Source of the DNA: an uncultured Flavobacteriaceae bacterium
Lineage (GTDB): Bacteria; Bacteroidota; Bacteroidia; Flavobacteriales; Flavobacteriaceae
Assembly: GCA_947494205.1 (NCBI GenBank)
Contig: CANLUH010000012.1
Location: 62,001 to 126,000 of the forward strand
DNA: 64,000 nucleotides
Direction of reading: 5' to 3'
Shown: piece after piece, positions 9,113-27,401 of the stretch
Position numbering within the stretch: the first letter of the stretch is position 1
Layout of the letters: each line of letters begins with the position of its first letter
Notes under the pieces: generated by a model
What the model was told of the DNA's origin: nothing
The model's database searches: none
What the model saw: only the letters and a program-made list of their open reading frames with translations
Made by a program: the position numbers and the translations under genes

Positions 9113-9167
9113 GCTTCAATAATTTATAAGTTATTGATTTAAAGCTTCAAGGTTTAATATATTTTCT

Positions 9168-9175
9168 TACTTTTG
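9168..9175 (+). promoter_or_regulatory. TAnnTTTG -7 box
   Basis: TACTTTTG matches the Bacteroidota -7 consensus and lies 20 bp upstream of the ATG at 9196 of the second membrane-protein paralogue. Confidence 0.5.
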
Positions 9176-9195
9176 ATGTCCCTAAATTATTGATA

Positions 9196-9972: not shown

Positions 9973-10192
9973 GCACTTTATTTCTTTTTTTTAGAATAAA
10001 ATACTCTTTTTTAATTCGTTAAAGTGTTAAAAGTAAGTAGTTTGTGTTGTTTGAAGCATGTGTTTTTGTTTAAAATAATTGCGAAATCTTTATTTGTGTT
10101 CTTGTATGAGTTATCATATTGACAATCAATATGCTAAAAACAATGAATATCGTTAAAAAGTGTCTTATTATCGATAAACTGTAATTTATTCG

Positions 10193-10200
10193 TATATTTG
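10193..10200 (+). promoter_or_regulatory. TAnnTTTG -7 box
   Basis: TATATTTG, 20 bp upstream of the ATG at 10221 of the third membrane-protein paralogue. Confidence 0.6.
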
Positions 10201-10220
10201 CAGCCCCTAAATCGTGCAGA

Positions 10221-10940
10221 ATGAATGTTGATAGATTCAAAATAGTTAGGGTGGCTATACTATGTTTAGCTGCTTTATTTATTGTTGGTGTTGTGTTGGG
10301 TAATACTCTAATATCTAGTATTGCCAAAGCTTTTATATTTCCTATATACTTATATTTATACTTGGTGGAGTCTGAGCGTAAAAGTAAATCTTTTACGGGA
10401 TTTTTATTTATTTTTTCTGTTGCTGGCTTATATGCAGTAGTTGTAGCGTTTAGATCTAATATATACTCACATATTGGTAGTTTACCTTATATAGCTGCTT
10501 ATATGTGTTTGTTGATTTACATGATAAGAAGTATGAATTTTAAAACGCTTATTAAACGCTTTAAGTATTATTTAATAGTCTTAATGTTATTTAGTGGTTA
10601 TATTATCTTCACACTAAATAGTATGGTTTTAGAGGACGAGTCTCTAAAGGTAAATACGTTAGAGTTTGTATTTGAGGGGCTTTATAATTTCTGCATCTTA
10701 CTAGTATTATCGTTTTCATTATTATATTACTTGTATCACGATTCTAGAAGAGGGTTTTTACTGTTTTTAGCAAGTGCATGCATTGTGTTTTCCGAAATGG
10801 TACAAGTAGCTTACATTTTTATTGCAGCAGATTACGTGTTGAATGTAATATACTCGCTACTGTTAATTGTAGGGTTTTATTTTATATACATGCACATAGA
10901 ATCTAAAATCTATAGTGAAAATTATAAAGCATTACGATAG
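10221..10940 (+). CDS. Multi-pass membrane protein, third paralogue
   Basis: A 239-residue protein with about eight membrane segments, paralogous to the two genes before it (shared T-L-N-S-M, Y-N-F/V helix, F-S-E-M-V-Q and closing helix). The A-K-A-F-I-F-P-I-Y-L-Y stretch in its second helix is reminiscent of the YhhN K-P-L-x-M-P-x-x-x-L-Y motif, the best hint for that family. Its last ~69 codons plus the start of the doxX fragment beyond are duplicated at 25839-26165, so this gene marks the left junction of the island. It is intact. Confidence 0.75.
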   Translation: MNVDRFKIVRVAILCLAALFIVGVVLGNTLISSIAKAFIFPIYLYLYLVESERKSKSFTGFLFIFSVAGLYAVVVAFRSNIYSHIGSLPYIAAYMCLLIYMIRSMNFKTLIKRFKYYLIVLMLFSGYIIFTLNSMVLEDESLKVNTLEFVFEGLYNFCILLVLSFSLLYYLYHDSRRGFLLFLASACIVFSEMVQVAYIFIAADYVLNVIYSLLLIVGFYFIYMHIESKIYSENYKALR

Positions 10941-11060
10941 TTTTAAAAACGGAATATCCTTTTTGTAGAAAAATAGAATTATAGTAGACAATGTAAAAGT
11001 TACTACAGCTGTAGCGAATAATACACCACCATCATTATTAACATCTATACCTAATTGGGT
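10734..11060 (+). repeat. Left 327-bp direct repeat flanking the island
   Basis: Matches 25839-26165 at a constant offset of 15105 bases without gaps; by eye about 19 differences, roughly 94% identity. It spans the 3' end of the third membrane-protein gene and the 3' end of doxX. Identity is lost abruptly at 11060/11061, where the decayed IS110-like sequence begins. Confidence 0.92.
10932..11060 (-). pseudogene. 3' fragment of doxX (duplicated, truncated)
   Basis: Contains the last ~43 codons of the DoxX-family gene found intact at 26037-26417, in the same orientation, ending ...D-I-P-F-L-K-L-S-stop. It has no 5' part because the island starts at 11061. Its end overlaps the end of the third membrane-protein gene by 9 bp, just as the intact doxX overlaps the gene fragment at 25839-26045. 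Confidence 0.9.
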
Positions 11061-11689
11061 ATAAGCAATAAAACCAATCTGTTAAAAAGCATTCAAGTGC
11101 TCAGTGTCGAAATAAAACATCGGGTAAAACAAAGGAAAGAGTTGAAAACGAAATTAACAGACTATAAGTTAGTAAATCAAAAGAACTTATTAAGTTTCTT
11201 GATTAATCAAAGCAATAATTTAATCGAAGAGTTAACTAATCAGGTTAAACAAATAGAAAACAAATCAATCTTTTAATTAAACAACAACTGGATTTAAAAT
11301 AGAAATATAACCAACCTGTTTCAGTTCTTAGAGAGTTAGTAAGATTTTAGTATGGAATCTGGTTGGTAAAAATAAATGTTTTTAAAGATATTAATGGCGC
11401 AAGAAAATTAGCCTGTTTCCCTGATGTTACTCCTTTTGAAAATCGTTCTAGAGCATCAATCTTTGGAAAATATAGAGTTTCTTTATTTGCAGATAAAGAG
11501 CTTATTACATATGGCTAGTATTAGTGTTATTAAAAGTAAAATGAAATACAAAAATACTATTTAAGAAAGTTAGAGTAAGGCGAAAATAAAATGAGTGTAT
11601 TAAATGCGGTAAGAAATAAAAGCATACATATTATTTACGCTTTAATTAAAAATCAAACTTTTTATCAAAATAAATTGGAATTATCATAG
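11061..11689 (+). pseudogene. Decayed IS110-family transposase
   Basis: Several frames give pieces in the right order for an IS110-family DEDD transposase: an N-terminal/middle coiled piece (11055-11276, K-H-R-V-K-Q-R-K-E-L-K), then after stops a V-F-K-D-I-N-G-A-R-K-L-A-C-F segment followed by P-F-E-N-R-S and G-K-Y-R-V-S-L (around 11370-11517), and a C-terminal K-M-S-V-L-N-A-V-R-N-K piece ending at 11689. At least two in-frame stops and missing parts make it non-functional. It starts exactly where the left direct repeat ends. The family call is from memory of typical Bacteroidota IS110 proteins. Confidence 0.7.
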
Positions 11690-11700
11690 AAATCAGGTTA

Positions 11701-12345
11701 TTATAAAATATATCTTGTATGCTTTCCAATAGTATATTCTTTTCCATTCTTAACAAATTTCTTTGACAAAATTTCTTTTCTAGAGACGAAAGCGTAATTA
11801 GATTGATTTCTTTTGAATATTCTTTTTAAATCGTCTAATTGTATTTCATTTGGAATTAACTCTACTATATCAAATATTTTTATCTCATAGCAATTATAAT
11901 AATTATTCCATTTTAAAAGTTCATATTCTCTTTTTATAAATTTGCAAGCAAATGACGAAAATATTTTAAAATTAAGAATATTATTATCTAACAATTCTTC
12001 TTTAAACTCTCTAAAAACATTTATTTCTCTTTCTTTCTTTTTTTTAAACCAATTAATAACATCATAACAATGTCTTCCCTCAACATAGAACCTTAAATCG
12101 TTAAATTTGTTAGTATTTTCTTCTTTCCTTTTTGAATATCTAACACCCCATGAATGAAACAATTTATCATCTCCATATTTTTTATAAGCTCCTCCTACTG
12201 GCTGAAGTTGTTTTGTGTTTTTAGTATTATAAACAAGTAAATAATTACCGTTTAAATAAATTCGGTATAAATAACTTATAGAAAAACGTATTTCATTTCT
12301 CTTATATTTCAATAAAAATTTACTCTTTAAATATAAACGTAGCAT
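11701..12345 (-). CDS. Nudix-like protein, resembling SMODS-associated NUDIX
   Basis: A 214-residue basic protein. I see a strand Y-L-L-V-Y-N-T-K, then Q-L-Q-P-V-G-G-A-Y, and about 70 residues later R-E-F-K-E-E-L, which together look like a split Nudix box (G-G ... R-E-x-x-E-E). The long insert between the two halves and the P-V-G-G-x-Y start recall the SMODS-associated NUDIX domain found near nucleotide-signalling defence systems; no such synthase is present here. It is 11 bp downstream of nadB on the same strand, so an NAD-related or ADP-ribose-related substrate is also possible. Catalytic competence is uncertain. Confidence 0.5.
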   Translation of the reverse strand: MLRLYLKSKFLLKYKRNEIRFSISYLYRIYLNGNYLLVYNTKNTKQLQPVGGAYKKYGDDKLFHSWGVRYSKRKEENTNKFNDLRFYVEGRHCYDVINWFKKKKEREINVFREFKEELLDNNILNFKIFSSFACKFIKREYELLKWNNYYNCYEIKIFDIVELIPNEIQLDDLKRIFKRNQSNYAFVSRKEILSKKFVKNGKEYTIGKHTRYIL

Positions 12346-12356
12346 AGAATATTACT

Positions 12357-13946
12357 TTAAACTATTTTCTTTTCTATTAAATCTACGTTAAAAAAGCCTC
12401 CTTTATTTTCTTTTCTTGAAATTGAAAACTGAGTAATGAGATATCCAATAGTAATAAGGTTTCTTAACTCACATAAATCTCTAGAAACTTTTGATTCTTC
12501 ATACATTTTTAATGTTTCATTATATAAGATTTCTAATCTATTATTAGCTCTTAACAAGCGTTTGTTAGATCTTATTATTCCTATATAATCATTCATTATA
12601 TTATTAAGATCCATTCTTTCATGTGTTATTAAAATGTTTTCAGCATAGGGTTTTTGATATTTGTCGTTCCAGGTTGGGATGCTTTCTGGGATGCTTTTTA
12701 AAGAATCAAAAGTAGCTTTCAAGTACATAAAACTCTTATGTGAATATACTATTGCCTCTAACAAAGAATTAGATGCTAATCTATTGGCTCCATGCAATCC
12801 TGTTGATGCACATTCTCCTGATGCGAATAAGTTTTCTATAGATGTTTTTCCATTGACATTCACTTTAATACCTCCACACAAATAATGAGCAACAGGTGCT
12901 ACAGGAATCATATCTTTCTTTATATCCAAACCTATTGAAATACATTTCTCAAGTATGTTTGGGAATTTTTCTTTGAATTTTTGAAAATCAAGATGAGTAC
13001 AATCAAGAAAAACATATTCATCTCCTCTAACCTTAAGTTCATTATCTATTGCTCTTGCAACGATATCTCTTGAAGCTAACTCCATGCGACTATCATATTT
13101 ATTCATAAACCTTTCTCCATGAATATTTCTAAGATATGCCCCAAAACCTCTCACAGCTTCAGAGATTAAAAAACAAGATGATTCTAATGATAGTTTATCA
13201 TATAAACCTGTAGGGTGAAATTGAATAAATTCCATGTTTTCAATTTCTGCCTTAGCTCTATATGCCATAGCAATTCCATCTCCAGTTGCTATTTTAGGGT
13301 TAGTTGTAGTTTTATAGACTTGACCAATACCTCCTGTAGCTAACATTGTTATTTTGGATGTTATTCTTTTCACTTTATTAAATTTAGTGTCTAAAACATA
13401 AGCCCCATAGCAAGAGATATTAGAATCTCTATCCACTTGCTGGCCAACATGGTGCTGAGTAATCAATTCTAAAGCAAAATGATGTTCAAAAACTTCTATA
13501 TTAGATTTCAAAGACACTTTTTTAAGTAAAGCCCTAATTATTTCAAACCCAGTAATGTCTTTATGATGTAAAATTCTATTTTGAGAATGCCCTCCTTCTT
13601 TACCTAAAGAAAATTCTCCATTACTAGATTTATCAAAGTTAACTCCCCATTCTAAAAGCTCTTCCAACCGTATAGGAGCTTCCTCAACTACCATTTTAAC
13701 AACTTCTTCATTACATAATCCATCGCCAGCGAGAATCGTATCTTTAAAGTGTTGAGCAAAAGAATCATTTTTTACTTCATTAAGAACAGTAGCGATGCCT
13801 CCTTGCGCATATTTAGTGTTAGATTCTAACTTATCATCCTTGGTAATAATAGTAACCTTTAAATCACTAAAATTGTCTGCTACTTTTAAAGCAAATGTTA
13901 GTGCAGCAATACCCGATCCTATAACAAGGAAATCTGTTTTATACAT
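12357..13946 (-). CDS. nadB: L-aspartate oxidase
   Basis: NadB oxidises L-aspartate to iminoaspartate, the first step of de novo NAD synthesis, and passes it to NadA. The 529-residue flavoprotein has the N-terminal FAD dinucleotide motif (G-S-G-I-A-A-L-T), the K-Y-A-Q-G-G-I region, the family signature F-I-Q-F-H-P-T-G-L-Y, the G-E-C-A-S-T-G-L-H-G-A-N-R-L-A motif, and a helical C-terminal domain. Length is normal. It lies 16 bp downstream of nadA, both leftward, and is followed by the Nudix-like gene. It is inside the island, so a second copy may exist elsewhere in the chromosome. Confidence 0.96.
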   Translation of the reverse strand: MYKTDFLVIGSGIAALTFALKVADNFSDLKVTIITKDDKLESNTKYAQGGIATVLNEVKNDSFAQHFKDTILAGDGLCNEEVVKMVVEEAPIRLEELLEWGVNFDKSSNGEFSLGKEGGHSQNRILHHKDITGFEIIRALLKKVSLKSNIEVFEHHFALELITQHHVGQQVDRDSNISCYGAYVLDTKFNKVKRITSKITMLATGGIGQVYKTTTNPKIATGDGIAMAYRAKAEIENMEFIQFHPTGLYDKLSLESSCFLISEAVRGFGAYLRNIHGERFMNKYDSRMELASRDIVARAIDNELKVRGDEYVFLDCTHLDFQKFKEKFPNILEKCISIGLDIKKDMIPVAPVAHYLCGGIKVNVNGKTSIENLFASGECASTGLHGANRLASNSLLEAIVYSHKSFMYLKATFDSLKSIPESIPTWNDKYQKPYAENILITHERMDLNNIMNDYIGIIRSNKRLLRANNRLEILYNETLKMYEESKVSRDLCELRNLITIGYLITQFSISRKENKGGFFNVDLIEKKIV

Positions 13947-13962
13947 ACTAGATTTTAAAATT

Positions 13963-14958
13963 TTATGACAATTCTAACATTCTCTCAATTGGCAATAATG
14001 CTTTCTCACTTAATTTAGAATCAACTTCAATTTCAGGTAATTCATGTTTTAGGCATAAATATAGCTTTTTCATTGTATTTAATTTCATATAAAAACATTC
14101 ACTACAAGCACAAGTATTATCTTCTAAAGCTGGTGCTGCAATTAGTATTTTATTTGGAGATTCTTTTTTCATTTGATGTAAAATACCTACTTCTGTAGCT
14201 ACTATAAACTTTTTTTGATGACTTTCTCTAACATATTTTAATAACCCAGATGTAGAACCAATATAGGCAGCTGCCTTTAGTATATAATGTGGAGATTCTG
14301 GATGAGCAATTATTTGAGAATCTGGATGTTCTTTAAATAAATTTATCATTTTCTCCATAGAAAAGGCTTCATGAACCATACATGCTCCATCCCAAAGTAG
14401 CATATCCCTTCCAGACTGTTCATTCAAATAGTCTCCTAAATGTTTATCGGGAGCAAAAATTATTTTTTGTTCTTTTGGAAAAGAATTAATGATTTTTACC
14501 GCATTAGATGAAGTGCAAACAATATCACTTAGAGCTTTTATCTCAGCAGAACAGTTGATATATGTAACAACTTTATGATTTGGATTGTTTTTAACAAAAT
14601 CTTCAAACTTTTCAGGAGGACATGAATCAGCTAAAGAGCAACCAGCTTTTAAATCTGGAAGAAGAACTTTTTTAGTTGGATTTAAAATTTTTGCAGTTTC
14701 TGCCATAAAATGAACTCCAGCAAAAACTATAATATCTGCATCTGTCTCAGCTGCTTTCTGAGCAAGAGCTAAACTATCTCCTACAAAATCAGCTATGTCT
14801 TGTATTTCACTTTCTTGATAATAGTGAGCTAAAATAATTGCGTTTTTTTGTTTCTTTAAAAATATAATTTCTTCTTTATAATTTATGTCTGGATTAACTT
14901 TTATATCTAAAAACCCTCTATCCAAAACTGCCTTTTTTATTTCCTTAGTTATTTCCAT
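13963..14958 (-). CDS. nadA: Quinolinate synthase A
   Basis: NadA condenses iminoaspartate with dihydroxyacetone phosphate to quinolinate using a [4Fe-4S] cluster. I chose the ATG at 14958 (M-E-I-T-K-E-I, 331 residues, normal for the family); the frame is open 36 codons further up but that stretch reads as a non-conserved hydrophobic leader and contains the promoter box. Three cluster cysteines are visible: in [15 protein letters not shown], and C-A-C-S-E-C-F. The I-L-A-H-Y-Y-Q substrate motif is near the N-terminus. First gene of the nadA-nadB-Nudix run, divergent from the beta-barrel operon. Confidence 0.96.
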
Positions 14959-14975
14959 ATAAAATGTTTTAAAAA

Positions 14976-14983
14976 CAAATATA
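14976..14983 (-). promoter_or_regulatory. TAnnTTTG -7 box for nadA
   Basis: On the minus strand this reads TATATTTG, 17 bp upstream of the nadA ATG at 14958. It supports the shorter nadA start. Confidence 0.6.
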
Positions 14984-15089
14984 ATACAAATAACTAAGGA
15001 TTTTAAAAATGTATTTAATTCACTAAATAATAATAAGAAATTCGTATTATTGTATATGATTTTCATAAAAAATCAATTAAAGCATATAT

Positions 15090-17495
15090 ATGTACCTTAG
15101 GCATAAAAATTATTTATTAACTCTATCTTTTATACTCTTTTTTATTACATCCCTCTTTTCTCAAGATAGTTTTAAATATCAAATAAAGGGTAATGTATAT
15201 GATGAAGAAAATCGCTCTTTAGAGTTTGTAAATATTATACTCCTTAATAAAATAGACTCATCGTTTGTAAAAGGAACTACAACTAATATCAAAGGAAACT
15301 ATTCTATAGAAAACATTACGCCTAATAATTATATACTTCAATTTTCCCACGTAAGTTATAAAACAATTGAACAAGAAATTAATTTAAAAAAAAGAGAAGA
15401 TTTAATATTAAATCAAGTTCTAGAATCTAACTCGTTAGATGAAGTTGTAATAACATCAAACAAACAAGCAATAAAAATTGATGCGGATAAAATTATTTTT
15501 GATATGAAAAATAGTACTGCTTCTGAAGGTAGCACGGCTATAGAATTATTAAGAGATATCCCCACTGTTATTATTGACAATGATGGTAACATTAGCTTAG
15601 CTGGTAAAAATAAGATTAGCCTGGTTATTAATGGTAAATTAATTAATCTTTCTAATGAAGATATAGAAAGAACATTGAATAGTATTTCAGGAGGAGATAT
15701 AGAAAAAATAGAAGTTATAAACAACCCTTCATCTAAATACGATGCGGTTAGTGGATCTGGACTTATAAACATAAAGACTAAAAAAAATAAAGGTGATGGC
15801 TTTAATTTAAATGTGAATTCTAATTGGTCATATGGAAGGAGGCCTAAGCTTAATTCGGGAACACGAGCGAGTTATAGTTCGAATAAGTTTTCTGTATGGG
15901 GAGGATATATTTATTCAGATAATAAGTTTTCAGAAGACTTAGAATTAAACCGTTTTATTATAGATGAGGATGAATCTTGGAGTTTTATCCAGAGAGTAAA
16001 TCAAAACCAGGAGTTTAAAACAAACTCTTTAAATACAGGTATAGAATATAAAATAAATAAAAATCAAGGTGTAGAATTAAATTATGATTTTAAGGATAGT
16101 AAAGACAAATATAACCCTAGTGGAAATACTGTTATTTTAATAGATAATATTTTTGATTCAACATTTAATTCTGGTAATAATCAAGATGTAAATTGGGAAC
16201 AACACCTTGGTTCTTTGATATATAAAATAAACATGAAAAATAACAGTTCTTTAAGTTCTACTTTTAGCTACCTAAACAACAAAGAACTATCTTATGCGTT
16301 AACCAATCAAGATATAAATCAAAACATAATAACTGAAAATGAAATCACTTCAGCTATAAAAATTAGCACAGCAAAAATAGACTATTTTTTGCCTATAAAA
16401 GAAGATTTAAATTTTGAAACCGGAATAAAATTATCAGGTGTTGATACTTCATTATTGACTACAACAGAAACGATTTCTGGGAATGATAATTTTTTTGATA
16501 GATTTAGTGATTTCGACTATAAAGAAAATGTTTTAGGTTTATATGTTAATACCAGTTTTAATATAAACAAAATGAAAGCAAGAATAGGTCTTCGTTTTGA
16601 GCATACTAACTTAAAAAACAGTCTAAATACATTGAGTCAAAATACAGTGGTAAATAATGATTATTCAGATTTTTTCCCTAATATTTCTTTAAATTATCTG
16701 AAAGGGAATCACTCTATAAATTTTGATTTTTCTAGAAGTATAATCCGTCCAAACTATGCAAATTTAAACCCTTTTGAATTTTATTTAGATAGATTTACAA
16801 AAATCTCTGGAAATCCTCAATTATCTCCTCAGTATACTTATAATTATAGTATAAGTGACACTTATAAAAAAATTAATTTTTCAATTAATTATATTAACGA
16901 CAAAAACATGCTAAATAGGTTAGCAAAACAAAATATAATATCTAAAGAAGAAAATTATAAATACGAAAATATAGATTTATCAAAAAGAATAAGTTTAAAT
17001 ATCTCTTTCCCTTTTAAAATCAATAATTGGTGGAATTCTATAAATACTTTTTCTACTTATTATGACGACTATCAAATATCTTTATTAGATTTTCCAACGA
17101 GTATTAGTGGTTATGGATTATATTCACAAACCCAGCATACTTTTAAAATTGCGGATGGTTTTTCATCTAACTTTGCTTTAAAATATTTATCTCCACAAAT
17201 ATCTAGAGGAGGTCTTTATAATTTAGATTATCGTTTTTCTACTAGAATAGGTTTTAGTAAGAAAATGTTTAATAATCTAGCTGTTGTAAAAGTAAATTTC
17301 ACAGATGTCTTTAATACTGATAAATTTTCAGGACTAGTAGGCCCAGTGAACAACAGAGTTCAAATATATAGTAAATGGGAAACACAACAAATTCAATTAA
17401 GTTTTTCTTATCAAATTTCAGGAAATAAAGACAAGGTAAAATATAATAATAAAAATGAGGGTATAAAGGAAGAACTTAAACGAATTGACAATTAA
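15090..17495 (+). CDS. Outer-membrane beta-barrel (TonB-receptor-like) protein
   Basis: An 801-residue protein with an N-terminal signal peptide ending near F-S-Q-D, a carboxypeptidase-regulatory-like beta-sandwich (about 28-110, I-K-G-N-V-Y-D-E), a plug-like region (S-L-A-G-K-N-K-I-S-L-V-I-N-G-K and I-E-V-I-N-N-P-S-S-K-Y-D-A), and a long beta-barrel ending in an aromatic strand region followed by a polar tail. This is the Bacteroidota outer membrane beta-barrel family 3 type, related to TonB-dependent receptors. Substrate unknown; it might import a ligand or be an exit channel. First gene of the six-gene rightward operon; the aminotransferase ATG follows its stop after one base. Confidence 0.88.
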   Translation: MYLRHKNYLLTLSFILFFITSLFSQDSFKYQIKGNVYDEENRSLEFVNIILLNKIDSSFVKGTTTNIKGNYSIENITPNNYILQFSHVSYKTIEQEINLKKREDLILNQVLESNSLDEVVITSNKQAIKIDADKIIFDMKNSTASEGSTAIELLRDIPTVIIDNDGNISLAGKNKISLVINGKLINLSNEDIERTLNSISGGDIEKIEVINNPSSKYDAVSGSGLINIKTKKNKGDGFNLNVNSNWSYGRRPKLNSGTRASYSSNKFSVWGGYIYSDNKFSEDLELNRFIIDEDESWSFIQRVNQNQEFKTNSLNTGIEYKINKNQGVELNYDFKDSKDKYNPSGNTVILIDNIFDSTFNSGNNQDVNWEQHLGSLIYKINMKNNSSLSSTFSYLNNKELSYALTNQDINQNIITENEITSAIKISTAKIDYFLPIKEDLNFETGIKLSGVDTSLLTTTETISGNDNFFDRFSDFDYKENVLGLYVNTSFNINKMKARIGLRFEHTNLKNSLNTLSQNTVVNNDYSDFFPNISLNYLKGNHSINFDFSRSIIRPNYANLNPFEFYLDRFTKISGNPQLSPQYTYNYSISDTYKKINFSINYINDKNMLNRLAKQNIISKEENYKYENIDLSKRISLNISFPFKINNWWNSINTFSTYYDDYQISLLDFPTSISGYGLYSQTQHTFKIADGFSSNFALKYLSPQISRGGLYNLDYRFSTRIGFSKKMFNNLAVVKVNFTDVFNTDKFSGLVGPVNNRVQIYSKWETQQIQLSFSYQISGNKDKVKYNNKNEGIKEELKRIDN

Positions 17496-17496
17496 A

Positions 17497-18744
17497 ATGA
17501 ATAACAGTATAAAACACGAAGTAGTAAAAAGACGAGTTATCAGGTACTTTAATTCTAATCAAGAAGAAGTGACTTTCTCTCATGGAAAAGGCGCTTATGT
17601 TTTTGATAATTTTGGGAATAAATATTTAGATTGTGTCTTAGGTTATGGCCCAGTAGTTTTAGGGCATTCTAATAATATTTTTAACACTAAAATATCTAAT
17701 TTTTTATCTAATGGAATACATATGCCTGGTTTTACAGATTTGCATGATAAATATTTAGAGCATTTACTATCCAAGCATGAAAACCTAACGTCTAGTATTC
17801 TATCCGTATTTATGAAAACGTCTTCCGAATCTGTTACAGGAGCAATTAGAATAGCATCTATAGAAACTAATAGAAAAGGGGTCTTAAGATGTGGTTTCAG
17901 TGGTTGGCATGATTCACAACATGCTTATTCCCCTTCTTGGCATATGCCTCCAAAACACAGAGGAAAACTAAGAAATATCGATGGATTAAGGGGAGTTAGT
18001 AACGATGAAAAAGTATTTAATTGGCAATCGTTAGATTTAAACGATTTAAGTAGTCTTTTAAAGAAAAACGGATCAAAAATAGCTTGTTTTATTTTTGATG
18101 CCTTTCAATTATCTTTTATAGATATTAATATTCTTAATGAAGCCATTAATTTATGTAAATCCTATGGTATAGTAATTGTTATTGATGAGACTAAAACTGC
18201 TGGAAGGGTTTCACCTTTTGGGGCTATCGCTACCGATAGTTCGCTGTGGGATATGGTTGTTTTGGGAAAAGCTATTGGTAATGGGACACCTTTAAGTATG
18301 TTACTTGTTAAAGAAGAATATGGAAGTTCTGTAAAAGACGCAAGAATTGGAGGAACACATTCAAAAGAACTCCTTTCTGTTCAATGTGCTCTTTCTACAT
18401 TAGAAATAATGGACAAATCCAATGGATACGAAAAAATAGGTAAAGCAGGCACAAATTTGTCTACTCTATTTAATAATATAGCTTTAGAAATTGGAATTGC
18501 TAATTTAATAGAATCAAAACCTCTTTTTGGAGGAGGTCTTTTAGATATTGTTTTTAATGATAAAATGTATAAAAACTCCAATTATGTACGTATTTTACAA
18601 AATATATTTTTAGATAATAAGATTTTACATTTAGTAGGCCACCCTTCATTTGTTTCATTAGCTCATTATGAGATTGATGAGGAATTAATAAAAGCAGATT
18701 TTTATAAATCACTTTTAAGTTGGAGTAATAAAATTCATAAATAA
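17497..18744 (+). CDS. Class III PLP-dependent aminotransferase (GSA-aminomutase-like)
   Basis: A 416-residue fold-type I PLP enzyme. An in-frame TTG four codons up (17485) exists, but ATG 17497 lies one base after the previous stop and fits best. Features: the N-terminal Y-V-F-D-N-F-G-N-K-Y-L-D motif, a G-F-S-G-W-H-D motif, the PLP-ring Asp in I-V-I-D-E-T-K-T-A-G-R, and the Schiff-base Lys in V-V-L-G-K-A-I-G-N-G. It looks closest to glutamate-1-semialdehyde aminomutase-type members, but context rules out a simple haem role. It may make or tailor an amino compound exported by the ABC genes downstream (inference). Confidence 0.85.
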   Translation: MNNSIKHEVVKRRVIRYFNSNQEEVTFSHGKGAYVFDNFGNKYLDCVLGYGPVVLGHSNNIFNTKISNFLSNGIHMPGFTDLHDKYLEHLLSKHENLTSSILSVFMKTSSESVTGAIRIASIETNRKGVLRCGFSGWHDSQHAYSPSWHMPPKHRGKLRNIDGLRGVSNDEKVFNWQSLDLNDLSSLLKKNGSKIACFIFDAFQLSFIDINILNEAINLCKSYGIVIVIDETKTAGRVSPFGAIATDSSLWDMVVLGKAIGNGTPLSMLLVKEEYGSSVKDARIGGTHSKELLSVQCALSTLEIMDKSNGYEKIGKAGTNLSTLFNNIALEIGIANLIESKPLFGGGLLDIVFNDKMYKNSNYVRILQNIFLDNKILHLVGHPSFVSLAHYEIDEELIKADFYKSLLSWSNKIHK

Positions 18745-18766
18745 TTAAAATTAACATAACCATATC

Positions 18767-19441
18767 ATGGAAGAAATCAAAAAAATCATTAAAGCAATAA
18801 ACTATAAAAATTGGGTACTAGAATTTAAAAATAAAGAAGAAATAATATACGCTTCTATTATTCCTAAAAACGAATCTAATGCTGAAATAGATCAAATTTC
18901 AAATTTTGAATCAAAATGGTTTTTACAAGAAGAAATGTCATTCTATGAAGTAATAAACCAATGTTTTTTGGGAATTTCGACAATAGAAAGAAATATTCTT
19001 AAACATGACTTTTTTTATAAGGATATTAATGTTTTTTTAAACAGAGAAAAGGATAATTCTTCTGTTGAAAATGAAACAGTTTATGCACATGAACATAAAC
19101 CTATTTCCTCTTTAGAAAATATAAAAGAGGTTATAGGTGATGTAAAATATAAAGATTGGGAGTTTAGAGTTACAGAAAAAGGAAATTTAACGATTTTACA
19201 ATTATGGTTTTACGAAAAAGACACCGATACAGGTGAATTAATCGAACAATACTCTAGACAATGGATACTAAATATAAATATGGGTATTACCGAAATAGTT
19301 AATACTTGCTTTTTAGCTGTTTCTACTGCCATAAGACATGAGATTAGAGAGAATTTCTTTTATGAAAATAAGCGTGTTTCTAATCCTCATAGAGATATAG
19401 AAAAAATTGTTCATTATAGAAAAGGATATGCCGTTAATTAA
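18767..19441 (+). CDS. Two-copy unknown-domain protein
   Basis: A 224-residue soluble protein made of two copies of a ~95-residue domain (about 1-95 and 110-215). Each copy has I-K-x-[IV]-I, then Y-K-[ND]-W-x-[LF], a pair of strands, [KR]-Q-W or S-K-W-F-L, an [EN]-x-M-x-x-x-E-[VI]-[IV]-N segment, C-F-L-[GA]-[IV]-S-T, and [DN]-F-F-Y. Copy 2 keeps H-E-I-R-E-N-F-F-Y and P-H-R-D, while copy 1 has lost the acidic H-E-x-R-E. I do not know the function. Copy 2 resembles, from memory, small domains in some phage and actinobacterial proteins. Its end overlaps the ABC ATPase gene by 14 bp. Confidence 0.75.
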   Translation: MEEIKKIIKAINYKNWVLEFKNKEEIIYASIIPKNESNAEIDQISNFESKWFLQEEMSFYEVINQCFLGISTIERNILKHDFFYKDINVFLNREKDNSSVENETVYAHEHKPISSLENIKEVIGDVKYKDWEFRVTEKGNLTILQLWFYEKDTDTGELIEQYSRQWILNINMGITEIVNTCFLAVSTAIRHEIRENFFYENKRVSNPHRDIEKIVHYRKGYAVN

Positions 19442-20438
19442 AATAAACAACTTACATAAAAAATTTAGAGTACATAAAAAAGAAGAAGGATTCCTTGGGT
19501 CATTAAAAGCATTATTTAAACGTCAATATATAGATAAAGAAGCTGTAGTAGATGTTTCTTTTTCTGTTGGAAAAGGTGAAATAATAGGCTTGTTAGGGGC
19601 AAATGGAGCAGGAAAAACTACCCTATTAAAAATGTTAACGGGTATTATCCACCCAACCAAAGGAAATGTAGAAATACTAGGTTACAATCCTTGGGACAGA
19701 AAAAATGAATTTCTTAAAGAAATCTCATTAATAATGGGGCAGAAAGCTCAATTATGGTGGGATTTACCAGCAGCGGATTGTTTTTTATTGTTGAAAGAGA
19801 TTTATGTAATTCCTGAAAAGCAATATAGAGAAACTATAGAGGAACTTAGTATTAAATTAAATGTCAAACATCTTTTAAACATTCAAATTCGTCGTTTAAG
19901 TCTAGGTGAGCGCATGAAAATGGAGTTAATAGCCTCTTTATTACACAGGCCAAAAGTCCTCTTTCTTGATGAACCAACGATTGGTTTAGATGTTAAGTCA
20001 CAAAGAGTAATTAGAGAATTCATATTAGATTATATTAAAAAATATAGCCCTGCTGTTATTTTAACAAGTCACTATATGGACGATATTCAATACTTGTGCG
20101 AAAGGGTTTTAATAATACGATCAGGGAAAATCGTTTATGATGGTTTATTAACAGATTTAGCTCAAAAATATTCTCCTAATAAGATAATTAAAGCTCATTT
20201 TAAAGAAAAGCAAGAAAGTTTAAATATATTACTTGACTTGCAAAAATACGGTGAAATCTTACACAATGAAAAAGAGCAAATCCACTTAATGGTAAATAGA
20301 GAAAATATTTCAAATACCACAAATTACTTATTAGAACATTATGAAATTATAGACTTATCTATAGAAGAAGTAGATATTTCTATAACTATCGAGTCAATAT
20401 TAGACAATAAAAAATTAGATTCAATCAATGACTACTAA
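19428..20438 (+). CDS. ABC-2 type exporter ATPase (COG4586-like)
   Basis: The ATP-hydrolysing subunit of an exporter. ATG 19428 (M-P-L-I-K-I-N-N-L) gives 336 residues; AAAGGA just upstream (19421) is an unusually clear ribosome-binding-like site for this genome. Walker A is G-A-N-G-A-G-K-T-T, the ABC signature is L-S-L-G-E-R, and Walker B is V-L-F-L-D-E-P-T, followed by the switch His in L-T-S-H-Y. A C-terminal extension (about 230-336) is typical of the COG4586 group. It overlaps the upstream gene by 14 bp and the next permease by 11 bp, suggesting translational coupling. Confidence 0.92.
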   Translation: MPLIKINNLHKKFRVHKKEEGFLGSLKALFKRQYIDKEAVVDVSFSVGKGEIIGLLGANGAGKTTLLKMLTGIIHPTKGNVEILGYNPWDRKNEFLKEISLIMGQKAQLWWDLPAADCFLLLKEIYVIPEKQYRETIEELSIKLNVKHLLNIQIRRLSLGERMKMELIASLLHRPKVLFLDEPTIGLDVKSQRVIREFILDYIKKYSPAVILTSHYMDDIQYLCERVLIIRSGKIVYDGLLTDLAQKYSPNKIIKAHFKEKQESLNILLDLQKYGEILHNEKEQIHLMVNRENISNTTNYLLEHYEIIDLSIEEVDISITIESILDNKKLDSINDY

Positions 20439-21240
20439 ATTATTTTTTAAGACTCTTAATCTAGAAGCTAGAACCACGATGTCTTATCGTTTCGACTTTT
20501 GGATAAGCGCAGTTATTGGTTTTATAGCCGAGTTTGGAGCCGTTTGGTTTTTATGGAATGCTGTATTTAAAGAATCTAATTCTGATGTTATAGGAGGGTA
20601 TAGTTTATCGAGTATGTATATTTATTATTTAACTGTAATATTAATTAGTAAAATTGTTAGAGGAAGTAGATCAAAAAATGATATCGCATCAGATATTTAC
20701 CAAGGTAATCTTAATAAATATCTATTGTTTCCCGTAAATTATATTTTATATAAGTATGCTCAACATTTAGGTGTAATGTTTCCTTCATTCATTCAGTTTT
20801 TTTTATTTGGGGTTGTTGTTATTCTAGTTATAGATTTACCAAACGACATTAATTTATCTTTTACATCAATTTTCATGGCTTTAATCACAATTTTTATAGC
20901 TAATATTCTTTATTTTCTTATGAATTACATGTTAAAACTTACTGCTTTTTGGATTGACAATGTGTGGAGTTTAGATGCTTTTAAATGGTTTATTGTTTCT
21001 CTTTTAGGTGGATATATGTTACCAATTAGTGTTTTCCCTAAAAATTTACAAATAGTTTTAAATTATTTACCTTTTAAATTTTTGTTTGACTTTCCTGTCA
21101 ATACTCTTTTTGGTAAAATTGGGGTAGAAATATGGGTTAAAGAGATTGCAATCTCTTTAATTTGGTGTCTATTTTTTTTAATAGTCTGCAGGTTAGTTTG
21201 GAAAAAGGGTAGATTACAATATACTGGAGTAGGAATTTAA
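20428..21240 (+). CDS. ABC-2 type permease (COG4587-like)
   Basis: A 270-residue inner-membrane protein with about six hydrophobic segments. It has the amphipathic N-terminal Y-R-F-D-F-W start of the first membrane segment and a conserved D-I-Y-Q-G-N-L-N-K-Y-L-L-F-P-V turn, which is the cytoplasmic coupling region of this permease group (typically R/G-x-L-x-x-x-L-x-x-P). It starts inside the ATPase gene (11-bp overlap). With the next gene it should form the heterodimeric membrane pore. Cargo unknown. Confidence 0.88.
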   Translation: MTTKLFFKTLNLEARTTMSYRFDFWISAVIGFIAEFGAVWFLWNAVFKESNSDVIGGYSLSSMYIYYLTVILISKIVRGSRSKNDIASDIYQGNLNKYLLFPVNYILYKYAQHLGVMFPSFIQFFLFGVVVILVIDLPNDINLSFTSIFMALITIFIANILYFLMNYMLKLTAFWIDNVWSLDAFKWFIVSLLGGYMLPISVFPKNLQIVLNYLPFKFLFDFPVNTLFGKIGVEIWVKEIAISLIWCLFFLIVCRLVWKKGRLQYTGVGI

Positions 21241-21251
21241 CAATAAAAAAA

Positions 21252-22040
21252 ATGAAAAAATACTTAAGATTATACGCCTATTTTTTAAGGTTTTCATTTA
21301 GCAAGTCTATGGAATTTAGATTCGATTTCTTTTTTCGAATACTTATGGATTTTGCATGGTATGGTACACAAATTGCCTTTTTTTCAATTTTATATAAACA
21401 TACTAATCTTTTAGGTGGTTGGAATTTTGATCAAGTATTAATTTTTATGGGAAGTATCTTTGTTGTGGATGCTGTTAATATGACGGTATTTTCAAATAAT
21501 TTTTGGTGGCTACCTACTTATGTTAATAGAGGGGAACTAGATTATTATCTAATGAGACCCGTATCTTCATTATTTTTTCTTTCTTTAAGAGATTTTGCTG
21601 CTAATTCTTTTATGAACTTATTTTTCGCAATTGGATTTTTAGTCTGGACTATTTTACGTTACCCTGAATCTTTTAGTATTGATAAAATAATGTTATTTAT
21701 TTTTTTATTAATATGCGGTATATTATTATTTGCTATGATGGGAATGATTTTTATTATCCCAGTTTTTTGGCTTCATTCTCAAAAAGGATTAAAAGATATT
21801 TTCTCTTCATTTCAGCGATTTGGAAACCAACCGCATAGAATATATTCTGGATGGATTAAACATGTTTTAACTTCTATACTTCCTTTTGCCTTTGTTGCAT
21901 CTTATCCTGTGTCAATATTATTTGAAAATTCACCCTTAAAAGCAGTCATGCATAGTTTCATTTTAGTGATTTCTCTTTTTTTGTTTATGAGATATTTTTG
22001 GAAAAAAGGGCTTAGAGCATATTCTTCGGCTTCTAGTTAA
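21252..22040 (+). CDS. ABC-2 type permease (COG3694-like)
   Basis: A 262-residue partner permease with about six membrane segments. It shows the same layout as the gene before it: E-F-R-F-D-F-F before the first helices and N-R-G-E-L-D-Y-Y-L-M-R-P-V as the coupling turn. The aromatic-rich C-terminal end (R-Y-F-W-K-K-G-L-R-A-Y-S) is typical. Last gene of the six-gene operon; its stop is one base from the stop of the convergent NAD kinase, leaving no room for a terminator between them. Confidence 0.88.
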   Translation: MKKYLRLYAYFLRFSFSKSMEFRFDFFFRILMDFAWYGTQIAFFSILYKHTNLLGGWNFDQVLIFMGSIFVVDAVNMTVFSNNFWWLPTYVNRGELDYYLMRPVSSLFFLSLRDFAANSFMNLFFAIGFLVWTILRYPESFSIDKIMLFIFLLICGILLFAMMGMIFIIPVFWLHSQKGLKDIFSSFQRFGNQPHRIYSGWIKHVLTSILPFAFVASYPVSILFENSPLKAVMHSFILVISLFLFMRYFWKKGLRAYSSASS

Positions 22041-22041
22041 T

Positions 22042-22923
22042 TTATGACATATTATTTTCTCCCCAGAGTAACTTTTCTCTTAATCTATTAAAAAAACTGT
22101 CTTTATCAATCATAACTAATTTTGCTACAAATGGAGTTTTCTTTATTATTACTCTAGTTTTTATAGGAGCCGCTAATATTCTAGAATCCAAAGATATTAA
22201 AAACTCATCTTCTCTACTTTTAACAGTTAAATCGACTTGAGTTTTATCAGATATAACCAAGGGTCTAGAATTAAGATTATGGGGAGCTATAGGAGTTAAA
22301 ACTAAATTAGAACAACTAGTATCAATTATTGGCCCTCCACAACTTAAAGAATACCCAGTACTTCCTGTAGGTGTTGAAATAATTAATCCATCAACCCAAT
22401 AATTTGTTAGTTTTTCACTATTTAAGCTCACGTTTACAGAAATCATTGATGTTGTCTGTTTTCTGCTAATTACGACTTCATTAAGAGCAAAATTTATTTG
22501 TTTCTTTTTCTTTAATACATCTGGAAATGTTGTAATAGAAACAAGTGATCTTTCAGAAATTGAATAGTTTTCTTTTATTATCTGGTCAATAGATTTTTCA
22601 ATATTCTCTTTTTTTATTGACGTTAAAAATCCCAAGCGACCTGTATTTATACCAATAATTGGAATCTCAAGTTCTTTGATAAATATTATAGACTTTAATA
22701 TTGTACCATCCCCTCCAATACTTATTAAGAAATCATAAGAACTATCTAGTTTTTCAAAACAATTAAGGTTTGAACTTATTTCAAGTTTTTCATTCTTTAA
22801 ATAGAGAAAACATTCTTTCTCAATATGGACCTTTATTTCTTTTAATATCAAATAATTTAAAATAATCTGAATATAACTTAAAGACTGGTAATGTTTAACT
22901 TGGCTAAAAATGGCTATTTTCAA
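22042..22923 (-). CDS. nadK: NAD kinase
   Basis: NadK phosphorylates NAD+ to NADP+ using ATP. The 293-residue protein shows the diagnostic G-G-D-G motif in L-I-S-I-G-G-D-G-T-I-L (about residues 70-80), the N-T-G-R-L-G-F-L-T motif, and the T-P-T-G-S-T-G-Y-S-L-S NAD-binding loop. Length and order are normal. It is convergent with the ABC permease and lies inside the island with nadA and nadB. Because nadK is normally an essential core gene, a second copy elsewhere in the chromosome is to be expected, though this window cannot show it. Confidence 0.95.
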   Translation of the reverse strand: MKIAIFSQVKHYQSLSYIQIILNYLILKEIKVHIEKECFLYLKNEKLEISSNLNCFEKLDSSYDFLISIGGDGTILKSIIFIKELEIPIIGINTGRLGFLTSIKKENIEKSIDQIIKENYSISERSLVSITTFPDVLKKKKQINFALNEVVISRKQTTSMISVNVSLNSEKLTNYWVDGLIISTPTGSTGYSLSCGGPIIDTSCSNLVLTPIAPHNLNSRPLVISDKTQVDLTVKSREDEFLISLDSRILAAPIKTRVIIKKTPFVAKLVMIDKDSFFNRLREKLLWGENNMS

Positions 22924-23337: not shown

Positions 23338-23340
23338 TTG
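23333..23340 (+). promoter_or_regulatory. TAnnTTTG -7 box overlapping a TTG start
   Basis: TAATTTTG is a perfect -7 consensus, yet its last three bases are the TTG that best begins the phytase-like lipoprotein at 23338. Both cannot act together as written, unless initiation is at a non-standard codon just downstream. Confidence 0.4.
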
Positions 23341-24480
23341 TCAAATAAAATACTAAAATATGAGGCGCTACTGATTTTGGTTTTGTTAATTTATTCTTGT
23401 GGAATAAAAAAAAACACTGCTAGACTGTATTCTCAAATGAATTATATCGGGATGTATGAAATCCCATTTGATGAAACATTCTTAAATACAAAAATTGGAG
23501 GCTTGTCCGGTATTGATTATAATTTAGAAAAAGATGTTTATTATTTAATTAGTGATGATCCTTCTACTAATAGTCCGTCTAGATATTATACTGTAAAAAT
23601 TCATTCAAATAATAAAATGATTGATAGTATTACATTTTTAGATGTTAACTTCTTAAAAAACAAGAATGGGAATAATTTTATAAATCCTAAACAGTCGCCT
23701 TTAAAATCAATTGACCCAGAGGACCTTAGGTATAATCCAAAGGATAAATATATATATTGGAGTAATGAAGGGGAGCGACTCGTACAAGGCTCAAAAAGTA
23801 TTCTTCAAAACCCATCGATTAATATTATGGATTTGAAAGGTAATTTTATTGGAGAGTTTTTAATCCCTTCAAATTTAGTTATGCAAGAATTAGATAAAGG
23901 TCCTCGTAAAAACGGAGCTTTAGAAGGAGTGGCGTTTTCTAAAGATTATAACTATTTGTATACAAGCTTAGAAGTACCTTTATTTGAAGATGGAGAACCT
24001 TCAACCTTTAAAGAAGGAGGTAAGGTAAGAATTTATAAGTTTAAAACTAAAACTAAAAAAGCAATATATCAATACGGATACACGTTAGACCCTGTTGCAT
24101 TTAAAGCCATTCCTAAAGGAACATTTCAAATTAATGGTATCTCTGCAATTATTGAATTTAAAAAAGATAAGTTATTAGTGGTAGAACGATCCTATTCAAA
24201 TGGGAGAAAATCTTCTACGATAAAAATATTTATAGCGGACTTAAGTGAAGCTAACGATGTTTCTTCTTTTATTTCATTGAATCGAAAACAAAACTATCGG
24301 AAAGTTTCTAAAGATTTACTTTTAAACCTAGACACCTTGGGTATTCATATCGATAATATTGAAGGAATTACATTCGGTCCAAATTTACCTAATGGCAATA
24401 AAACTTTGTTATTAGTAGCGGATAATAATTTTTCTAAAAATCAAAAGAGTCAAATACTTTTTTTTGAATTGATAGAATAA
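23338..24480 (+). CDS. Esterase-like activity of phytase family lipoprotein
   Basis: A 380-residue protein matching the phytase-like esterase domain (a beta-propeller type fold): G-G-L-S-G-I-D-Y near the N-terminus, S-I-D-P-E-D-L-R-Y, N-E-G-E-R, N-G-A-L-E-G-V-A-F-S and a late D-N-I-E-G-I-T-F-G. A lipoprotein-like signal (L-L-I-L-V-L-L-I-Y-S-C-G) is present only if translation begins at the TTG at 23338 or a nearby non-ATG codon; the first in-frame ATG is after the signal. Probably exported and possibly surface-exposed. The true substrate of this family is unclear. It is a single gene flanked by AT-rich gaps within the island. Confidence 0.8.
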   Translation: MSNKILKYEALLILVLLIYSCGIKKNTARLYSQMNYIGMYEIPFDETFLNTKIGGLSGIDYNLEKDVYYLISDDPSTNSPSRYYTVKIHSNNKMIDSITFLDVNFLKNKNGNNFINPKQSPLKSIDPEDLRYNPKDKYIYWSNEGERLVQGSKSILQNPSINIMDLKGNFIGEFLIPSNLVMQELDKGPRKNGALEGVAFSKDYNYLYTSLEVPLFEDGEPSTFKEGGKVRIYKFKTKTKKAIYQYGYTLDPVAFKAIPKGTFQINGISAIIEFKKDKLLVVERSYSNGRKSSTIKIFIADLSEANDVSSFISLNRKQNYRKVSKDLLLNLDTLGIHIDNIEGITFGPNLPNGNKTLLLVADNNFSKNQKSQILFFELIE

Positions 24481-25838: not shown

Positions 25839-26045
25839 TACCACGACTCCCGAAAAGGCTTTTTACTGTTTTTAGCAAGTGCATGCATTGTGTTTTCCGA
25901 AATGGTACAAGTAGCTTACATTTTTATTGCAGCAGATTACGTGTTGAATGTAATATACTCACTACTATTAATTATAGGCTTTTATTTTATTTATATGCAT
26001 ATAGAATCTAAAATCTATAGCGAAAACTATAAAGTGTTACGATAG
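25839..26045 (+). pseudogene. 3' fragment of the third membrane-protein gene
   Basis: Encodes the last ~69 codons of the gene at 10221-10940, beginning Y-H-D-S-R-K-G and ending K-V-L-R-stop. Most differences from the intact copy are third-position and silent (only R/K, V/I and A/V changes), which suggests that it diverged as part of an intact gene before being truncated here. Confidence 0.9.
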
Positions 26046-26165
26046 TTTTAAAAACGGAATATCCTTTTTGTAGAAAAATAGAATTATAGCAGACAATGTA
26101 AAAGTTACTATAGCTGTAGCGAATAATACACCACCATCATTATTAACATCTATACCTAATTGGGT
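25839..26165 (+). repeat. Right 327-bp direct repeat flanking the island
   Basis: Partner of 10734-11060 (constant offset 15105). It runs from inside the truncated membrane-protein gene into the 3' third of the intact doxX. Identity starts abruptly at about 25839. Confidence 0.92.
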
Positions 26166-26417
26166 TAAATGCATAAAAATAGCACCACCAATTACACCTA
26201 ATGTTAATACAGCACCTGCCCAAACTGTTTTAGGAATAAGTAATAAGATACCGGCAATTAATTCTAAAACGCCAATGCCAATTCTACCAATAGGTTCTAG
26301 TCCAACTTGTTCAAAAATATAAACACTATCTGGGTGTGCAGTAAATTTAAAACGTAAGGTTTGTATTAATATAATAGCTACAATTAAACGTAGAGCAAAT
26401 AATAATTTGGTTTTCAT
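26037..26417 (-). CDS. DoxX-family membrane protein
   Basis: A 126-residue protein with four hydrophobic helices, typical of the DoxX/DoxX-like family (R-L-I-V-A at the first helix, G-I-G-V-L-E-L-I-A-G in the second, G-G-A-I-F-M-H in the third). DoxX relatives are linked to quinone or redox functions, but this member's role is unknown. Its last third lies in the right direct repeat, so the island inserted at its 3' junction and left the gene intact. Confidence 0.88.
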   Translation of the reverse strand: MKTKLLFALRLIVAIILIQTLRFKFTAHPDSVYIFEQVGLEPIGRIGIGVLELIAGILLLIPKTVWAGAVLTLGVIGGAIFMHLTQLGIDVNNDGGVLFATAIVTFTLSAIILFFYKKDIPFLKLS

Positions 26418-27392: not shown

Positions 27393-27401
27393 GGGTGTCT
27401 A

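Follow-up and report, generated by a model that had tools for sequence, protein, structure and literature searches.

A possible specialised-metabolite operon with a class III aminotransferase and an ABC-2 exporter on a low-GC insertion in a Flavobacteriaceae genome

Do the six closely spaced genes at 15090-22040 of this window, the whole 64,000-nucleotide stretch analysed from an uncultured Flavobacteriaceae bacterium, act in one pathway, and what might they make and move? The first-pass annotation placed them in an island and proposed a synthesis/export system. The reading that we tentatively rank first is a horizontally acquired specialised-metabolite operon in which the aminotransferase product would be exported and NAD genes of the same insertion would play a supporting part.

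The insertion and its six-gene core

The operon sits at the heart of an insertion, about 15 kb long and low in GC, with direct repeats at both borders. Its features are:

10734..11073, plus strand: left repeat copy, with the 3' end of a 7TM gene and the 3' end of a truncated DoxX copy
11701..12345, minus strand: orphan Sa_NUDIX (SMODS-associated NUDIX) protein, PF18167 at 185.2 bits; follows nadA-nadB
12357..13946, minus strand: nadB, L-aspartate oxidase, TIGR00551 at 505.5 bits (cutoff 452.75)
13963..15066, minus strand: nadA, quinolinate synthase, TIGR00550 at 389.4 bits (cutoff 262.9)
15090..17495, plus strand: outer-membrane beta-barrel protein (OMP), OMP_b-brl_3 at 218.3 bits (cutoff 27), with CarbopepD_reg_2 and, by eye, a signal peptide
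17497..18744, plus strand: class III PLP aminotransferase, Aminotran_3 (PF00202) at 84.2 bits (cutoff 30.5)
18767..19441, plus strand: two-copy protein, two tandem PHROG 1540 phage-type domains
19428..20438, plus strand: ABC ATPase, ABC_tran (PF00005) at 94.5 bits (cutoff 25), with Walker A, signature and Walker B by eye
20428..21240, plus strand: ABC-2 permease 1, ABC2_membrane_6 (PF06182) at 93.4 bits (cutoff 22)
21252..22040, plus strand: ABC-2 permease 2, ABC2_membrane_6 (PF06182) at 136.3 bits (cutoff 22)
22042..22923, minus strand: second NAD kinase, NF002521 at 355.3 bits (cutoff 309); convergent with the operon, whose last stop codon is 1 bp away
23338..24480, plus strand: phytase-like esterase, PF13449 at 237.3 bits
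24828..25595, plus strand: S1/P1 nuclease, PF02265 at 231.5 bits
25839..26178, plus strand: right repeat copy, with a truncated 7TM 3' end and the 3' end of an intact DoxX gene

The two repeat copies are identical in 318 of 341 aligned columns. In the congener G001, homologues of the left-flank 7TM gene and the right-flank DoxX gene lie about 0.8 kb apart, separated, as judged by eye, by a single additional 7TM-like gene, and the insertion is absent from the corresponding site in both G001 and a second relative, G003. GC content is 0.272 in the insertion and 0.313-0.315 in the flanks; the minimum among 47 right-flank windows matching the insertion in size is 0.2996. The name "island" is therefore well chosen. 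In two congeners the S1/P1 nuclease is unmatched at E <= 1e-20. On our best reading, the operon was horizontally acquired and put together locally.

All six operon genes lie on the plus strand in open frames, and a recount returned exactly the gaps first reported (1, 22, -14, -11 and 11 bp). The family assignments of the barrel, aminotransferase, ATPase and permeases also hold, each scoring above its Pfam cutoff. We took the aminotransferase to start at ATG 17497 and the ATPase at ATG 19428, where mechanical calling of open reading frames gave TTG 17485 and TTG 19407. Compared with TonB-dependent receptors, the OMP scores 18.6 bits for the plug (PF07715, cutoff 23.9) and 36.9 for the barrel (PF00593, cutoff 27). 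The spacing predicts co-transcription. Between 14950 and 15100, the Bacteroidetes promoter pattern TAnnTTTG occurs once, on the minus strand upstream of nadA; it has no plus-strand match for the operon and no -33 TTG partner at the tested spacing. Scans for sigma-70-type promoters (80 matches, 81.5 expected) and terminators (3 matches, 3.4 expected) are at chance level.

Aminotransferase, exporter and two-copy protein

The aminotransferase is a class III PLP enzyme: its PF00202 match lies above the gathering threshold, and the Schiff-base lysine (residue 258, counted from the ATG start) and aspartate 230 are invariant in 6/6 aligned members. Its best PDB sequence matches are chains named C-6' aminotransferase, presumably aminoglycoside enzymes, and GSAM. 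Identity as hemL (glutamate-1-semialdehyde aminomutase; TIGR00713, 97.3 bits, cutoff 527.3) or as the guanitoxin transaminase GntE (NF041362, 116.8 bits, cutoff 525) was rejected. The proposal that the enzyme makes or modifies an amino compound survives insofar as it is a plausible amine-installing enzyme of unassigned specificity: it scores far under the cutoff of every one of the best 25 of 72 matched NCBIfam models.

The family is rare, with relatives in five other lineages (6 loci). Searches found none in 98 other genomes of relatives (E 1e-50), 394 other genomes of the phylum (E 1e-45) or phages (E 1e-20), and confirmed none of 24 stretches in IMG/VR. Plasmids gave 52 records at E 1e-10; among the 15 matches listed, Agrobacterium pAt1 alone is near 40% identity, the other 14 standing at 23-28%. 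At 4/6 loci, from 3/5 lineages, the gene directly upstream of the aminotransferase is a NUDIX gene and a radical SAM-type gene is close by. The Agrobacterium and Chloroflexi MAG loci add orotidylate-decarboxylase-like, thymidylate-kinase-like and class V PLP genes; in a Gammaproteobacteria MAG a Gfo/Idh-like gene, matched at 21 bits where the cutoff is 27, lies just upstream. None of the Agrobacterium partners (radical SAM, class V PLP, pyrF, tmk, NUDIX) finds a match in the window at E <= 1e-5.

The ATPase and the two PF06182 permeases directly after it make up an ABC-2 exporter trio, named COG4586/COG4587/COG3694 in the first-pass annotation. The best NCBIfam match of the ATPase is TIGR01188 (drrA) at 200.3 bits; it misses the cutoff of 312.45, and identity as the DrrA daunorubicin-resistance ATPase was rejected. 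The ATPase has matches at E <= 1e-60 in ten plasmid records. At the plasmid loci inspected, two permease genes lie immediately 3' of the ATPase in every case (6/6), and the trio adjoins an NRPS gene on Bradyrhizobium pUSDA123-1, a 2-deoxy-scyllo-inosose synthase on Sodalis pHS1 and a polysaccharide pyruvyl transferase in a cyanobacterium; the other three loci have no clear biosynthetic neighbour. This recurrence of one gene order next to different cargo genes upholds the exporter-type assignment.

The protein between enzyme and transporter had been described as two copies of an unknown domain. The duplication is clear: its halves align with 31% identity (E 3e-13), and the PHROG 1540 profile (E 2.8e-23) covers two stretches. 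"Unknown" remains apt in that there is no Pfam family, but phage relatives exist and had been missed; 48 phage records match the domain. By eye, the C-copy retains the family residues H-E-x-x-E...H and the N-copy does not. The C-copy as modelled by AlphaFold (mean pLDDT 88.7) runs helix, three strands, helix, helix, an order that is dsRBD-like, a remark to which we give no functional weight. Foldseek against the PDB returned nothing at E <= 0.001 (best E 0.1), and VIA-align reached a maximum Z of 5.3, scattered over CapZ, porphobilinogen deaminase, lipoprotein, dsRBD and ribosome-hibernation rows. The model matches nine viral proteins in BFVD at E <= 0.001, seven named "uncharacterized" and two nameless. 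The two-copy protein has no match in 98 other genomes of relatives (E 1e-3) or in plasmids (E 0.01), and none of 10 pattern stretches in genomes of close relatives was confirmed. A comparison with the DUF6137 protein of the Sodalis cluster showed no kinship. Searches among solved structures brought up no usable relative for either permease, for the two-copy domain or for Sa_NUDIX. In our searches the domain turned up otherwise only in phages and viral contigs; here a bacterial operon uses it in tandem.

Co-occurrence of the aminotransferase, two-copy and ABC genes elsewhere had been set beforehand as the test of a conserved system, and the loci compared do not bear it out. Homologues of the ABC, permease or two-copy genes (E <= 1e-4) are found at 0/6 aminotransferase loci, two of them contigs of 4.3 and 10.7 kb; the aminotransferase or two-copy protein is found at 0/6 ABC loci and at 0/11 widened permease loci, from 15 found. 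A search of the open-licence literature with narrow terms gave no match to the gene set.

NAD(P) genes and Sa_NUDIX

The NAD(P) genes of the insertion were not in the gene list of the first-pass annotation. nadA, which probably starts near 14958 (the alignment with its nearest homologue, in G004, begins at residue 37), is present in one copy here and absent from two congeners. This genome alone, among six checked for both, combines nadA with 3-hydroxyanthranilate dioxygenase; it also has nadC. Among nine genomes searched, it alone has two NAD kinases, and the copy in the insertion is deeply diverged (52% identical to the native copy on another contig, C9). nadA and the second kinase look redundant here, hinting at spare copies for extra NAD(P) demand or at self-protection. 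The NAD genes could also be unrelated passengers.

Sa_NUDIX has NUDIX-box residues in common with two homologues; it lacks their N-terminal extension and shows no hydrophobic stretch by eye. It occurs in 3/395 phylum genomes including the source, and in the other two it adjoins a SMODS nucleotidyltransferase. It matches PADLOC models for 2TM CBASS effectors and RT-associated NUDIX proteins. A CBASS with this protein as effector was rejected, as Pfam finds no SMODS/CD-NTase among the 12 insert genes scanned and the N-terminal membrane part is missing.

Possible roles and known systems

If the six genes form a specialised-metabolite operon, the class III enzyme would put an amino group on an intermediate with a carbonyl group, the likeliest candidate being an aldehyde or ketone that resembles a sugar or nucleoside. 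No obvious scaffold-building enzyme is present in the insertion, so primary metabolism or genes outside it would have to provide this predicted substrate. The two-copy protein may help as a small component that binds or that acts as an enzyme. The ATPase and permeases, with predicted outward transport, would move the product through the inner membrane, and the barrel would take it across the outer membrane or recover it there. nadA, nadB and the second NAD kinase, by a predicted link, might lift NAD(P) supply or protect it during pathway activity. The tight same-strand spacing and the discrete, repeat-bounded insertion support this reading, as do the enzyme's nearness to C-6' aminotransferase and GSAM, the neighbours at its other loci, and the ABC relatives near NRPS and 2-deoxy-scyllo-inosose synthase genes. 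The paired NAD kinases and the pairing of nadA with the dioxygenase add support. Counting against it, the set is seen at no other locus compared, the scaffold builder is missing, the Agrobacterium partners are unmatched in the window, half of the six ABC loci inspected lack a clear biosynthetic neighbour, and the NAD genes may be passengers. The operon looks like a small secreted-compound pathway, unmatched to a known one, with a putative product.

Alternatively, the enzyme could aminate a nucleotide- or lipid-linked sugar and the exporter flip a glycan or lipid precursor for decoration of the cell surface, with no secretion. The second-best model of the aminotransferase, PRK06209 (103.5 of 486 bits), is GSAM-like and known from surface-polysaccharide loci; nucleotide-sugar and glycosyltransferase-like genes lie near the Clostridia and Phormidium aminotransferase loci by eye, and the cyanobacterial pyruvyl transferase fits as well. 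However, none of the 12 insert genes scanned with Pfam is recognised as a glycosyltransferase, nucleotide-sugar or lipid-carrier gene, and we consider surface decoration unlikely. Just as doubtful is an accreted island in which the OMP, aminotransferase, phage-type gene, exporter and NAD genes are chance neighbours without a common pathway. The failed co-occurrence and the differing nearest sources of the parts, among those found, are what such accretion would leave, yet reading frames overlap, gaps are at most 22 bp across six genes and every frame is open.

There is a slim chance that the insertion is a complete small-molecule unit drawing on pyridine nucleotides. nadA and nadB would make quinolinate from aspartate alongside the resident 3-hydroxyanthranilate route, the second kinase would provide or safeguard NADP, the NUDIX and PLP enzymes would convert a carbonyl compound derived from nicotinamide or quinolinate to an aminated product, and the pump and barrel would export it. 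Otherwise, the product might attack NAD(P) synthesis, the extra NAD genes being resistant copies.

Least probable is a defence module in which a CBASS-derived Sa_NUDIX and the NAD-making genes restore NAD(P) after NADase attack, the operon being secondary: the phylum distribution and PADLOC matches of Sa_NUDIX favour it, as do the NAD-rebuilding phage genes known from NAD-depletion conflicts (PMC9503650), but Pfam finds no nucleotidyltransferase, HORMA, TIR or other sensor among the 12 insert genes, the N-terminal extension is missing, and the exporter and PLP enzyme have no evident place.

Several known systems resemble parts of the insertion. CBASS effectors of the membrane type, Cap16 (PMC10419184), share the Sa_NUDIX domain and box with the insert protein; the latter is without an N-terminal membrane extension, and Pfam finds no SMODS gene in the insertion. 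C-6' aminotransferases and GSAM are, like our enzyme, of class III, although it falls far under the curated hemL and GntE cutoffs. Sodalis pHS1 and Bradyrhizobium pUSDA123-1 have the same ATPase and two permeases in a row (40-41% identity for the ATPase, 22-26% for the permeases), while the other window genes tested are without match there. The radical SAM-NUDIX-aminotransferase cassettes of Agrobacterium, a Chloroflexi MAG and a Clostridia MAG share the enzyme at 38-41% identity, with PLP lysine and aspartate kept; they differ in having no homologue of the ABC trio, in place of which Agrobacterium has MFS genes. If the NAD genes do serve the operon, it would be an instance of a metabolite exported from a pathway that brings its own NAD(P) supply, or that protects itself against an attack on an NAD target. 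Regardless of the NAD link, the operon draws attention to a rare class III PLP family and to these cassettes. Altemicidin is a precedent for NAD as a building block. In its pathway, the PLP enzyme SbzP joins NAD and SAM (PMC11610977). The likeness is one of concept, a PLP enzyme at work in a pathway fed by NAD; for our aminotransferase, any action on NAD is putative.

Operon and insertion

Six plus-strand genes lie where the first-pass annotation had placed them, and their gaps of 1, 22, -14, -11 and 11 bp are reproduced with ATG starts at 17497 (aminotransferase) and 19428 (ABC ATPase). Every Pfam family named in the operon scores over its curated cutoff, and the third protein is indeed a tandem duplication, its halves 31% identical (E 3e-13).

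Features of the insert
10734-11073, direct repeat, left copy
11701-12345, minus strand, Sa_NUDIX protein
12357-15066, minus strand, nadA (TIGR00550) and nadB (TIGR00551), divergent, like Sa_NUDIX, from the operon
15090-22040, plus strand, operon, in gene order: outer-membrane protein (OMP_b-brl_3, CarbopepD_reg_2); class III PLP aminotransferase (Aminotran_3); two-copy protein (no Pfam family); ABC ATPase (ABC_tran); permeases 1 and 2 (each ABC2_membrane_6)
22042-22923, convergent with the operon and 1 bp off its final stop, NAD kinase (NF002521)
25839-26178, direct repeat, right copy

GC content is 0.272 within the insert and 0.313-0.315 outside. The flanking repeats (318/341 identities) are composed of the 3' ends of a 7TM and a DoxX gene: on the left the 7TM gene is intact and DoxX a fragment, on the right the reverse. 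These reciprocal truncations are compatible with single-crossover integration or tandem duplication; none of the 12 insert genes given a Pfam scan came out as an integrase.

The host genome (G000) comprises 5,055,892 bases in 86 contigs, and its gene families suggest a flavobacterial member of the Bacteroidota, the phylum meant below. In the congener G001, the 7TM protein at 10221-10940 has a homologue (69% identity), with DoxX ~0.8 kb further on and then counterparts of the window genes at 26475-28160; by eye, that gap holds one extra 7TM-like gene. In G003, which belongs to a different genus, ligA and the homologue of 26475-27392 are some 2.1 kb apart. The second congener, G002, is uninformative here, its contig stopping shortly past its 7TM gene. 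Window positions 8381-10940 encode three consecutive, related multi-helix membrane proteins of no Pfam family, whose homologues sit after ligA in both congeners.

Relatives of the operon proteins

The annotation's exporter-type trio was borne out. Ten plasmid records match the ABC ATPase at E <= 1e-60, and two permease genes stand beside the ATPase at all six of these loci that were viewed. From family knowledge, we take the window trio to be an exporter rather than an importer. The six contexts comprise one NRPS gene, one 2-deoxy-scyllo-inosose synthase, one polysaccharide pyruvyl transferase and three without clear context. On Sodalis praecaptivus plasmid pHS1 (L135:8010-22923), the trio is grouped with the synthase, presumably aminoglycoside-type from its gene name, and a DegT-type aminotransferase.

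Among 295 other Bacteroidota genomes, 15 hold relatives of permease 2 (E 1e-15). At 11 of these loci, widened, the aminotransferase and the two-copy domain were absent at E 1e-3, ATPase matches were weak and confined to two, and permease 1 matched at one. A related ATPase or permease 1 is mostly missing near these homologues (L057-L067), and at L062 the two permeases are divergent. Judged from such comparisons, the genes appear to have been put together locally and not to form a conserved system. The proposal of an undescribed synthesis and export system is therefore weakened by the measure its authors chose, recurrence of the set elsewhere; what stands is an intact, tight operon in a discrete insertion.

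The aminotransferase is a PLP enzyme without known specificity. Among solved structures, two C-6' aminotransferases match it best (top hit 1.9e-22), with GSAM third, and it scores far under cutoff for the best 25 NCBIfam models among those matched. Searches of 98 related genomes (E 1e-50) and of 394 phylum genomes (E 1e-45), two overlapping sets, found no relatives. A plasmid search yielded one, at 40%, on Agrobacterium pAt1, and an alignment-led scan of a species-genome collection yielded five at 35-41% (5 confirmed of 143 pattern stretches), from Gammaproteobacteria, Clostridia and Chloroflexi MAGs, Agrobacterium B6 and Phormidium. All six aligned sequences (window, pAt1 and four scan relatives; B6, a near-copy of pAt1, was omitted) have the PLP lysine and the aspartate.

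A NUDIX gene lies immediately upstream of the aminotransferase at four of six loci. The Agrobacterium and Chloroflexi loci have seven genes in common (tmk-like, radical SAM-type, class V PLP, two OMP-decarboxylase-like, NUDIX and the aminotransferase), three of which (radical SAM-type, NUDIX, class III aminotransferase) recur in the Clostridia MAG; the cassettes span L018:9717-19256, L023:4368-11254 and, in Clostridia, L022:4413-9151. The radical SAM label denotes a Pfam match under cutoff in Agrobacterium (19.1 of 29.5 bits) and homology in Chloroflexi and Clostridia, neither with a Pfam match. In Phormidium a different radical SAM gene, over cutoff, adjoins the aminotransferase; it does not match that of Agrobacterium, and the locus has no NUDIX match. 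The cassette resembles a nucleotide-derived product pathway, matched to no named one, and the window has no match to any of its partners. Directly upstream of the Clostridia NUDIX-aminotransferase pair, L022:5192-7357 encodes a fusion of a WD40-type protein with a CAP12/Pycsar TIR domain.

By sequence, the two-copy protein is of a phage-type domain: it matches PHROG 1540 (2.8e-23), 48 phage records match, and an IMG/VR search led by viral sequences confirmed 38 loci of 71 stretches. Window-led scans returned the identical 5 contigs on both occasions. The predicted C-copy model is confident (pLDDT 88.7), with no clear structural relative in structure searches. The C-copy retains a near-invariant H-E-x-x-E and later H, most of whose residues are, by eye, lost from the N-copy. 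A binding or chaperone-like role is our guess.

NAD genes in the insert

The NAD genes are the least expected feature of the insert. Across nine genomes, nadA matched in five (G000, G004, G005, G060, G061) and had no match in G001, G002, G003 or G062; nadC matched in eight, G000 among them. Across six, 3-hydroxyanthranilate dioxygenase (TIGR03037) matched in G000 to G003, with no match in G004 or G005, the latter 80% complete. Thus nadA and the dioxygenase coincide only in G000 among the six genomes checked for both. G000 also has two NAD kinases, where each of eight other genomes has one. Compared with five other copies, the island kinase shows 48-52% identity, whereas native copies share 82-94% within the genus and 53-61% across genera; a recent duplication is therefore not its origin. 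Beyond it in the insert lie a phytase-like protein and then an S1/P1 nuclease. In G004 and G005, nadA-nadB adjoin an aminotransferase-like gene (named by eye), and Sa_NUDIX is absent from the surrounding 16 kb.

Sa_NUDIX occurs in 3 of 395 phylum genomes, G000 included. The other two copies adjoin SMODS genes, in CBASS-like loci. The window protein, whose gene follows nadA-nadB, is without their N-terminal extension and keeps the NUDIX box; Pfam found no SMODS gene among the insert genes nearby.

Possible product of the operon

We tentatively favour a secreted aminated metabolite pathway, because the packed operon is intact within a discrete insertion, contains a PLP enzyme and includes an exporter with some relatives beside natural-product genes. 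The PLP enzyme would make the metabolite and the ABC trio would secrete it. These same features place it ahead of envelope decoration, which seems unlikely, and of chance neighbourhood of the operon genes, equally unlikely given their tight packing, even in a set that looks locally assembled. A defence role, with the CBASS-like setting of the other Sa_NUDIX genes on one side and the missing SMODS gene on the other, is less likely still.

Position and apparent redundancy alone suggest that the NAD genes may be linked to the operon. That the metabolite derives from, or targets, pyridine nucleotides is a further idea to which we give little credence. Altemicidin is a precedent, NAD serving there as a building block alongside a PLP enzyme (PMC11610977); any likeness of its pathway to the window operon would lie, by analogy, in a PLP enzyme within a pathway fed by NAD.
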